The position numbers and the translations under genes are program-made. This document shows, in pieces, positions 28,959-36,414 of a DNA stretch of 64,000 bases. The notes under the pieces were generated by a model, which did not search any database, was not told the origin of the DNA, and saw only the letters and a program-made list of their open reading frames with translations. The stretch is from Desulfovibrio sp. (GTDB lineage Bacteria; Desulfobacterota; Desulfovibrionia; Desulfovibrionales; Desulfovibrionaceae): NCBI GenBank assembly GCA_024683955.1, contig JAIKXS010000034.1, positions 1 to 64,000 on the forward strand, read 5' to 3'. The stretch's first letter is position 1, and every line of letters starts with the position of its first letter.

Positions 28959-31247
28959 CTACATCGTCTCGAGAATTTTTTTCAGCTCCTCGCGTAAGAT
29001 GCGCGCTGCTGCTCCCGCTGCAGCTTTATCAATGCGAGCATTGAATGTCGGTTCAAGAGAATCGATACGTTTCTCCAGCCCGTCGATTCTCGCTGTTAAA
29101 ATGTCGTTTTCACGCTGTGAAGCGGCAAGTCGTTCCTGCAATTCATCTCTTGAACCATTATCATGATCCAGTGCCCTTTGTATCCTCTCCTCGAATTTGT
29201 TTGATATTTCGTCAGAAAGCTCGTCGATTTTTTGATGAAGGATCCTGAATTCCCTGGATGTTTTTTCTGTTGCCAAGATGACGGAATTGAGCCGTTCTTC
29301 TAGCTCTTCCTTCATAATACCTTGTGAGAGCCCGGCTGTTTTTTCCTCGAGTAGTTTTTGGATGTGCTCAAATGACGGAATTTCAGCACGGGAAGTTCCA
29401 GCGAGAGTCTGATCCAGGGCGTCAATTCGTGCATTTAGATTCGTCTGGTTTTGTTGGGTTTTTTCCATGTCCTGAAGAAGTTTCTGCATGCCATTTTCGA
29501 GCGCTGTCGTTATTGTCTTTTCAATATGCTGAGAGAGCATTGAATCCTCGGCAAGCAGCTTTTTTTCCGCAAGGCCTGACTGCATATCTGACCGCAGGCT
29601 TTCAAGGGCAAGCTGCAGGTCAGAGAGTCCCGTTTCGCAGATTTCAAGCCGTTCATTGAGTGTAGTCTGGAGCTCTGCGAGTTTGACGTCAAATGTAGCA
29701 AGGCGGGTTTCCAGTTCTTCTGTTCTCTCGTCTTGATTCGGTCTTTGTTCTTCCGTGCTCCCTGCCGTTTCGGTACGTGCTTCCTGAACCATTTTTTGTG
29801 GAGATTCAGATCCTATAGCGGCTGCCGTTTCAAGAAGCGTTTCTGCCGTATCTGCCTTGTTCGCACCTATGCTGTCCGAACGGATTGAATCCGATTCTTC
29901 CTCTCCCATTCCCCCTTCAACTCCCACGATGGTTTCTGTTGCGTTTTGCGTTGTCATATCTCCAGCTGCTGAAGGTAGGAGATTCTCTTCTGGCAATGGG
30001 CTTTGATTTTCAGAAGGATCTTTTGCCGTCCCAGGGGTTTCTTTTTCTTTATTACTGAGCAGAGTCTCTAAATTCCCCGCGAGAAGAGTGTCATCAGACA
30101 TCGTGACCGTATCGGTTTTTTGGGTTTCATTTAGTAAAGCAGCCAGATTTTCAGAAAGGGCCGCGTCTTCGGTAGGTAGTTCGGAGACCGTTTCCTCAGT
30201 GTCGTTCTGGATGGCGCCGAGAAGAGCGTCGATATCGTCGGTCGAAGGGGTTTTGTCCGCGGGTGCCGGATCTGCATTCTTGGCATCTGTTTGTGCCGTT
30301 TCTCCGAGGAGTGCGTCAAGATCGTCTTGAGCGGGCGTTGCGGCGTCGGCCTTTGGTGTCGGAGCAGTGTCGTTCTGCATGGAGCCGAGAAGAGCGTCGA
30401 GGTCGTCAGTTGAGGACACTGCTTTTGCGTTCTGCGTTGATGTCTGTCCCAGGGCTTCGGCCTGCATTTCGCCAAGTATTGTGTCAAAATCATTGGCGGG
30501 AGCGGCCGCCTCGGCGTCCGGAGAGGCGTTCTGTTGTGATTGAGCAGCGTGTTCGTCGGATATTTCACCGAGAAGAGCATCCAAATCATCGGCGTTCTTG
30601 GATTGTGGAGTATTTTCTTGGTTCGTTTCCATCATGCCAAGAAGCGCGTTGATATCTTCGCTACTTGATTCTTTTGCCGTCGTCGGAGCGGTTTCGCCCG
30701 GTCCCTTTGCCGTTTCATTATCGAGCGATGAGAGCAGGTCATTTAAGTCGTTATTGACGGATTCCTGTATTTCTTTGTCCGGTGTAGCGGTTTGAGATTG
30801 CTCATTTTCATTACTGCTATTCAGGAGGTTGTCTATGGCATTTGGAGGATTTTCCGATGAATTGTCACGGTTTGAAAATTTGAGGCCGCTGAACAGATCA
30901 TCTGCTTCATCTAGGCTCGACATGTCAAGCTTTTCATGGGGATCGACCGAGCGGGGGGCGGCGGTATCGTCCTGAGTCTGGTCGGGAGCTTGGGCTATCT
31001 GGGCCAGCAGTACGTCAAGATCTGACTCTTCCCCGCTCGATGGAGGGTCATTGAGCGTTTTGGCGGAAGTTTGGTCTGGCCTCTGGATGGGAGATTTTTG
31101 TGCTGTCTGGGCTTGTTGTTCCGATGGCGTCACTGAAGGGCTGGCTGCAGCGTCTGGGGAAGAAGCCGTTTGCGCGGATGGGGCGGATCCTTTTTCGATC
31201 AGTTCAGTAAGGTCTATAATTTCTTCCTGTGCAGTCGTCTCAGCCAT
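28959..31247 (-). CDS. Acidic repeat and coiled-coil protein with DDLDALLG motifs, function unknown
   Basis: A 762-residue cytoplasmic-looking protein without membrane segments. Residues 1-430 are acidic and low in complexity. They carry about a dozen copies of a short motif, best in DDLDALLGEI, DDLDALLGSM, DDLDALLGET and DDIDALLGAI (at 196-347, spaced 23-32 residues) with looser copies on both sides (from residue 74 to 400). Residues 500-762 form long predicted coiled coils ending in AARILREELKKILETM. The repeated motif resembles the EIDALL segment at the N-terminus of FliM, which binds phospho-CheY. The ATG at 31247 has GGAGG upstream. No known family is recognised; a scaffold or polar-organiser role is a guess. 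Confidence 0.75.
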   Translation of the reverse strand: MAETTAQEEIIDLTELIEKGSAPSAQTASSPDAAASPSVTPSEQQAQTAQKSPIQRPDQTSAKTLNDPPSSGEESDLDVLLAQIAQAPDQTQDDTAAPRSVDPHEKLDMSSLDEADDLFSGLKFSNRDNSSENPPNAIDNLLNSSNENEQSQTATPDKEIQESVNNDLNDLLSSLDNETAKGPGETAPTTAKESSSEDINALLGMMETNQENTPQSKNADDLDALLGEISDEHAAQSQQNASPDAEAAAPANDFDTILGEMQAEALGQTSTQNAKAVSSTDDLDALLGSMQNDTAPTPKADAATPAQDDLDALLGETAQTDAKNADPAPADKTPSTDDIDALLGAIQNDTEETVSELPTEDAALSENLAALLNETQKTDTVTMSDDTLLAGNLETLLSNKEKETPGTAKDPSENQSPLPEENLLPSAAGDMTTQNATETIVGVEGGMGEEESDSIRSDSIGANKADTAETLLETAAAIGSESPQKMVQEARTETAGSTEEQRPNQDERTEELETRLATFDVKLAELQTTLNERLEICETGLSDLQLALESLRSDMQSGLAEKKLLAEDSMLSQHIEKTITTALENGMQKLLQDMEKTQQNQTNLNARIDALDQTLAGTSRAEIPSFEHIQKLLEEKTAGLSQGIMKEELEERLNSVILATEKTSREFRILHQKIDELSDEISNKFEERIQRALDHDNGSRDELQERLAASQRENDILTARIDGLEKRIDSLEPTFNARIDKAAAGAAARILREELKKILETM

Positions 31248-35859: not shown

Positions 35860-36414
35860 TTAGCGCGTGAAGGAACGGGCAAAGATATCCTGAATGGCTA
35901 CCCGTCCATTATTTTCGAGAAAACGAGTTCCCGTGGCCGTGAAGTGACGCGCAGTGATGACCGGATCAAGTACTTTTTGCCAGTCGTCCTCCGTCCATGT
36001 GAACCATGTGTTGTTCGGCTGATCAAAGACAAGCAGGGGTTTGTTGCATATCTTGGCAAATTCTGCCCCCCAGCCTGTTCCGCCTTTCACTGTTTTATCG
36101 TCCTGAATGGCACCTACAACCACAACCTGATCCCCGCTCGTGACCTGCCAGCAAATAGACTGCAAGACTTTCCTGAAGAGGGGGGCCTTGGTGTACTCAC
36201 GGTTCAGAAGTTTTGACACATAACTGAGACTGACATCCTTGCCAGCAAGTTCTTCGCTTGTGAGGACCCGGACGCCGCGACTTCTTTCAATCTGATGGCC
36301 GTCAAAACTGTAGTTGACTTCTTCTATGCCCCAGCTTTCGGCAAGAGAACCAAAAAACTGTTCTGTTCCGGCCGCACCACCGCTGTAAAGAATGCATTGG
36401 TTTGAAATAAGCAT
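35860..36414 (-). CDS. SLOG-like Rossmannoid protein of unknown function
   Basis: A 184-residue protein starting MLISNQCILYSGGAAGTEQF, with a later GGTGWGAEFAKICNKPLLVF. The glycine-rich loop near the N-terminus and the second GGTGxxxE loop before a strand are the pattern of the SLOG/lysine-decarboxylase-like nucleotide-binding superfamily. It does not show the PGGxGTxxE motif of LOG cytokinin-type phosphoribohydrolases in full. AGGA precedes the ATG. It ends 12 nt before ahbB and is the first gene of the tetrapyrrole unit, so a role in nucleotide or cofactor handling there is possible. The fold call is moderate and the function is unknown. Confidence 0.6.
   Translation of the reverse strand: MLISNQCILYSGGAAGTEQFFGSLAESWGIEEVNYSFDGHQIERSRGVRVLTSEELAGKDVSLSYVSKLLNREYTKAPLFRKVLQSICWQVTSGDQVVVVGAIQDDKTVKGGTGWGAEFAKICNKPLLVFDQPNNTWFTWTEDDWQKVLDPVITARHFTATGTRFLENNGRVAIQDIFARSFTR

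Follow-up and report, generated by a model that had tools for sequence, protein, structure and literature searches.

The window, a 64,000-nucleotide stretch of Desulfovibrio DNA, encodes a 762-residue protein with an array of short DLDALL-type peptides, and across orthologs the presence of these peptides follows that of CheW. The repeats very probably belong to motility or chemotaxis. As read from the sequence, there is about an even chance that the protein acts as a multivalent scaffold, disordered over much of its length, on which CheY docks. A literature search of titles and the starts of abstracts, with most subscription journals outside its coverage, returned no description of the protein.

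A repeated motif in an acidic half

The frame starts at an ATG with GGAGG just 5′ of it. We defined a strict copy by the pattern [DE][LIVF][DEN][ASDNETVQR][LIMF][LF], which matched eight times: at residue 76 and at the seven sites marked as strict in Table 1. In 300 residue shuffles of the protein, strict copies averaged 0.10 with a maximum of two, and the 35 other ORFs of the window gave three matches in 14,616 residues. The repeated motif described in the earlier note is therefore real, with looser copies in addition, near the conserved block at residues 101-124 and at three further sites. Its six strong copies spaced 23-32 residues also held up: the last six strict copies, at residues 198-338, follow one another at 23, 32, 29, 27, and 29 residues.

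Residues 1-510 contain 33 prolines and 106 aspartates and glutamates against 26 lysines and arginines, while residues 511-762 contain two prolines and have a hydrophobic period of 3.4-3.75 residues. In four segments of the latter half, 26, 2, 30, and 6 of 500 shuffles gave an equally high period; the same measure is not specific, as 21 of 500 shuffles were as high for the repeat region (residues 200-350). By composition and hydrophobic period, an acidic disordered half joined to a coiled-coil half is plausible.

The window protein had no match over the cut-off in Pfam or NCBIfam, and a profile of its C terminus compared with the PDB gave a best E value of 0.23, with none over the cut-off. Membership of the FliM or CheZ families was rejected, as the FliM domain (PF02154) and the CheZ domain (PF04344) were both absent from the Pfam matches of the window protein and three orthologs at E values up to 1. 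A viral or plasmid origin was also rejected, since no relative was found in viral contigs or in a plasmid collection.

Table 1. Positions of the gene, the motif copies, and the conserved segments in the window
Feature	Coordinates	Strand	Remarks
Whole gene, 762 residues	28959..31247	-	frame and relatives
N-terminal peptide EEIIDLTELIEKG, residues 8-20	31188..31226	-	in most orthologs, also in those from CheW-negative genomes
First copy DLDVLLAQI, residues 76-84	30996..31022	-	in relatives often [DE]ID[AD]LLAQM, resembling the CheZ tail
Conserved block VDPHEKLDMSSLDEADDLFSGLKF, residues 101-124	30876..30947	-	in relatives the block ends in a copy, e.g. MGDVDNLLNSLDI
Looser copy AIDNLLNSS, residues 137-145	30813..30839	-	
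Copy DLNDLLSSL, residues 167-175	30723..30749	-	strict pattern
Copy DINALLGMM, residues 198-206	30630..30656	-	strict pattern
Copy DLDALLGEI, residues 221-229	30561..30587	-	strict pattern
Copy DFDTILGEM, residues 253-261	30465..30491	-	strict pattern
Copy DLDALLGSM, residues 282-290	30378..30404	-	strict pattern
Copy DLDALLGET, residues 309-317	30297..30323	-	strict pattern
Copy DIDALLGAI, residues 338-346	30210..30236	-	strict pattern
Looser copy NLAALLNET, residues 367-375	30123..30149	-	
Looser copy NLETLLSNK, residues 392-400	30048..30074	-	
Proline-poor half, probably coiled coil, residues 515-762	28962..29705	-	judged from composition and hydrophobic period alone
C-terminal helix block ending AAGAAARILREELKKILETM, residues 719-762	28962..29093	-	most widely conserved part

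Copies and CheW across orthologs

We looked for FliM, CheZ, and CheW within the genus (79 genomes) and, in other genera, for CheW in a further 39. Within the genus, 60 genomes had two to nine CheW matches and 19 had none. CheZ was missing in all 19 and in five of the 60 CheW-positive genomes, each of these five less than 80% complete. Among the other genera, 30 of the 39 genomes contained CheW. We read 113 ortholog entries, including that of the window and those from 40 of the 107 matched genomes outside the genus. Leaving out 19 entries cut at the 5′ end gave 94 with a readable 5′ end. At least one copy was found in 70 of 71 CheW-positive but only 1 of 23 CheW-negative orthologs, and at least two copies in 64 of 71 and none of 23, respectively. 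The one CheW-positive ortholog without a copy, from G252, is a frame of 125 residues that also lacks the N-terminal peptide; the CheW-negative exception, G003, has a single copy. Fisher's test gave p = 3e-19 for the association, a value that ignores the kinship of these related species.

The association also held along an rpoB tree of 70 genomes built with FastTree, on which the CheW label requires nine changes, at least seven of them on starred branches. In seven independent pairs from this tree, the copies followed CheW in six to seven and went the opposite way in none (median p = 0.016). Scoring the same pairs for two copies gave the CheW direction in four to seven, again never the opposite (median p = 0.031). 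In two genomes the normal rpoB is accompanied by another frame, RpoB-like but divergent and about 1490-1500 residues long (G016:C9:33752-36550 and G125:C103:3718-5802), which may derive from a phage or another mobile element.

Length by itself cannot account for the difference, since among orthologs of at least 400 residues a copy was present in 65 of 65 from CheW-positive genomes and in none of six from CheW-negative genomes, two of the six (G112 and G197) being frames untrimmed to a start. With a score matrix built from the CheW-positive copies, the lowest best score of a CheW-positive ortholog was 12.3 (G252 left out) and the highest of a CheW-negative ortholog 11.0; a looser pattern matched 3 of the 23 CheW-negative orthologs. 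The entries cut at the 5′ end comprised three CheW-negative rows, all lacking copies, and 16 labelled CheW-positive, of which ten had copies. The remaining part of the other six (G113, G115, G127, G132, G129, and G079, whose CheW label was given without a test) contained none, which counts against a scaffold for CheY. One genome, G015, contributed two of the cut rows, from two contigs. Homologs that keep the rest of the protein and have lost the motif, which the earlier note had named as the case that would refute a docking role, do exist. Among the orthologs read they belong to CheW-negative genomes, so that the loss speaks for a link to chemotaxis.

Copy number ranged from 0 to 13 across orthologs and spacing varied, so the constancy of number and spacing looked for in relatives was not found; the accompanying expectation, that the linkers drift faster, was borne out. 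Over 20 ortholog pairs, copies were 85% identical and linkers 63%, with pN/pS of 0.23 and 0.42, respectively, a comparison that is biased toward the copies, as they were picked by pattern in one member of each pair, and in which the more divergent pairs approach saturation. In two of the 20 pairs (G036-G034 and G034-G117), copies were little or no more conserved than linkers. Of 324 distinct copies, 51% have one of the residues L, I, M, V, and F at the third position after LL, whereas the two intervening positions have one in only 1% and 2%, giving the fuller motif [DE][LIV]D[ADS]LLxx[LM].

Near-identical 59-residue tandem units lie in the repeat regions of G024 (L031) and G025 (L035), indicating recent growth of the array. 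Such duplication, like the varying number and spacing, is what would be seen if acidic LDxLL peptides simply arose and multiplied by slippage, without function. The earlier note had left room for a low-complexity coincidence of this kind, and we now consider it very improbable: copies far exceed those in shuffled sequence and in the other ORFs of the window, change more slowly than the linkers, and were lost with CheW in independent lines, long orthologs included. On these controls, we rejected pure low complexity.

Candidate partners of the copies

In the genus, the FliM N terminus reads QDEVDALL[RK]GL in all eight genomes read (for example, QDEVDALLRGL), and the CheZ tail reads xID[DN]ML[AS]QL in all seven (for example, AIDDMLAQLGM; the CheZ loci L059 and L060, from other families, were left out). 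When six FliM and CheZ peptides were scored on the copy matrix, they were equalled or beaten by 0-4 of 12,375 background windows. By eye, the first copy in relatives is nearest to the CheZ tail and the later copies are nearest to FliM. On CheY, the FliM peptide and the CheZ tail share a single binding face. Like the copies, both docking peptides are short, amphipathic, and acidic, with LL and a third hydrophobic residue. In FliM and CheZ, each chain has a single such peptide, attached to a domain of the C-ring or of the phosphatase, whereas members of the family described here carry up to 13 on a putatively disordered chain that lacks such a domain. Two reports describe the binding of the FliM EIDAL(L) peptide to CheY (PMC9126983, PMC6946799). 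Multivalent binding of phosphorylated CheY (CheY-P) has been considered earlier, as an E. coli study models a network of CheZ dimers and CheY-P joined by flexible tethers (PMC1447658).

That the copies form a dock, as the earlier note proposed, gains from their being more conserved than the linkers, tracking CheW, and resembling the FliM N terminus and the CheZ C terminus; a constant number and spacing found no support. We give about even odds to CheY as the partner of the copies.

When the copy profile was compared with the PDB, the LD1 peptides of paxillin and leupaxin came first (E values 0.04-0.11) and no FliM or CheZ chain was among the matches, which counts against CheY docking. The copies fit the LDXLLXXL consensus, which is read by several unrelated domains and folds (PMC7703752). 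This likeness means that sequence alone does not prove CheY to be the partner. The copies may instead be LD-type amphipathic peptides for another motility or chemotaxis protein, such as a part of the receptor array or C-ring. The chemotaxis profile would suit any partner from that gene set, but this explanation does not account for the same type of peptide in two known CheY ligands of the genus, and we regard it as fairly unlikely.

Paxillin itself also displays several LDXLLXXL-type peptides on a disordered adaptor. Members of the paxillin family carry LIM domains, and none was found in the Pfam scan of the window protein and three orthologs at E values up to 1. Paxillin is eukaryotic, and we take the likeness as convergence. 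A secreted mimic of host paxillin would fit the match to LD1, and one report describes an LD motif in a bacterial effector (PMC4215226). A family that extends over the order and copies that track CheW make such mimicry extremely improbable.

A different explanation concerns flagella. In the genus, 18 of the 19 CheW-negative genomes also lacked a strong FliM match. Since FliM and CheW thus nearly coincide, chemotaxis and flagella are separated by a single genome, G035, in which FliM was present, CheW and CheZ were not found, and the ortholog is a 103-residue protein without copies. Its tree neighbor, G010, contains FliM, CheZ, CheW, and four copies. The separation is blurred by the FliM of G035, which still has QDEVDALLKGL. 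Perhaps this 1.6 Mb genome (loci L054 and L194) encodes a flagellum without chemotaxis, or a flagellum in decay. In four CheW-less genomes (G006, G104, G125, and G126), frames of 368-385 residues matched the FliM family weakly (E values of 1e-7 to 1e-9); these may be the SctQ-like component of a type III secretion system.

An N-terminal piece of FlhF was detected in six of six CheW-positive and none of 21 CheW-negative genomes searched, every match being below the family cut-off, and was not found in G035, a second fact that blurs the separation. As the FlhF signal disappears together with CheW, the same profile also fits FlhG as the partner. The copies would then imitate the FliM N terminus for FlhG or another flagellar assembly factor, and the protein would hold or titrate FlhG, setting the place or number of flagella. 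In monotrichous bacteria, FlhG interacts with FliM through the FliM N terminus (PMC12826062). Against FlhG as the partner, no genome reached the FlhF family cut-off and the CheZ tail of the genus resembles the copies as well. We know of no report of CheZ binding FlhG, and we consider this explanation unlikely.

We also compared two polar organizers. PopZ has a short N-terminal segment, an acidic disordered middle, and a C-terminal helical part, a layout like that of the window protein. Homology to PopZ was rejected, as hhalign gave a probability of 0.16 against profile A2 (described below) for one PopZ sequence, checked against PDB 6xry over residues 1-134. The polar landmarks HubP and FimV carry LysM and FimV C-terminal domains; neither a LysM nor a FimV domain appeared in the Pfam scan of the window protein and three orthologs at E values up to 1. 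HubP/FimV act as a hub for flagellar and chemotaxis factors (compare PMC8789113), a role like the one proposed here.

A proposed role and the conserved ends

Returning to CheY docking, we propose that the conserved ends, the N-terminal peptide and the C-terminal helix beside the probable coiled coil, form a core that is independent of chemotaxis and probably oligomerizes or places the protein. Where a species is chemotactic, the acidic middle of the protein would present 1-13 short amphipathic FliM/CheZ-type peptides. These most likely dock CheY, perhaps as CheY-P, and would thereby bring many copies of it together at one place. CheY as partner, the role of phosphorylation, oligomerization, and the place in the cell are all our inferences. 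In the usual picture, CheY diffuses from the receptor array to the motor and docks on FliM and CheZ. If the proposal is right, a separate scaffold with a conserved peptide array would add another kind of CheY site. More doubtful is an extension of this idea, in which an oligomeric scaffold buffers or gathers CheY-P away from the motor as a sponge. On this view, a single bacterial family added the sponge to an older core shared across the order, and lineages that lost chemotaxis repeatedly lost it too. To our knowledge, such a buffering layer of chemotaxis signaling is known in no other bacteria.

A query with the whole protein matched 28 of 61 related genomes, all of the same genus. Profile A1, made from the C-terminal 49 residues, gave matches at E values up to 0.01 in 33 of the 44 genera of the taxonomic family (179 of 288 genomes), many of those outside the genus being weak. 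Among named records, A1 matches fell in Desulfovibrio, other Desulfovibrionaceae assemblies, and one entry titled Deltaproteobacteria. Within the genus, A1 matched 72 of 79 genomes. Those without a match were the CheW-negative G031 and G009 and the CheW-positive G111, G007, G032, G135, and G004; that five CheW-positive genomes gave no ortholog counts against a role in docking CheY. A broader profile, A2, matched 23 of 24 genomes from other families of the order at E values of 1e-4 or better. The protein thus belongs to an order-wide family that has no family model.

Orthologs share the two ends, a EEIIDLTELIEKG-like N-terminal peptide (not recognized in G197, G252, G261, and G277) and a C-terminal AAARILREEI helix, around a fast-changing middle. 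Full lengths range from 103 to 1309 residues, and one open frame has 1842. Since genomes retain both ends after losing CheW, the protein must, on this conservation, have a role besides chemotaxis. One ortholog of G025 (L097:3982-6144) has a doubled N-terminal peptide (EEIIDLTEIDEEVIDLTELI).

Outside the taxonomic family, we took 29 loci, of which 27 were readable, many of them cut by the end of the locus. In these other families the ends are kept and strict copies are fewer, often ending in LF (LDFDDLFEE, IDSIFEK). The long array is therefore best seen as an elaboration of the Desulfovibrionaceae. G042, from one of the other families, contains FliM and CheZ and has no strict copy, which counts against a scaffold that serves CheY.

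In the window, the gene is flanked by cobJ, cbiG, and hemL on one side and by ubiE, mqnB, a polyprenyl synthase gene, and purL on the other. A search for conserved neighbors, suggested in the earlier note, gave a mixed picture over 28 loci: neighbors were kept on both sides in nine, on one side in 15 (several at a contig end), and on neither in four. Also in the window, at 35860-36414 on the minus strand, is a gene for a 184-residue protein that had no Pfam match, is 77-89% identical in relatives, and is more conserved than the enzyme neighbors in most loci compared.
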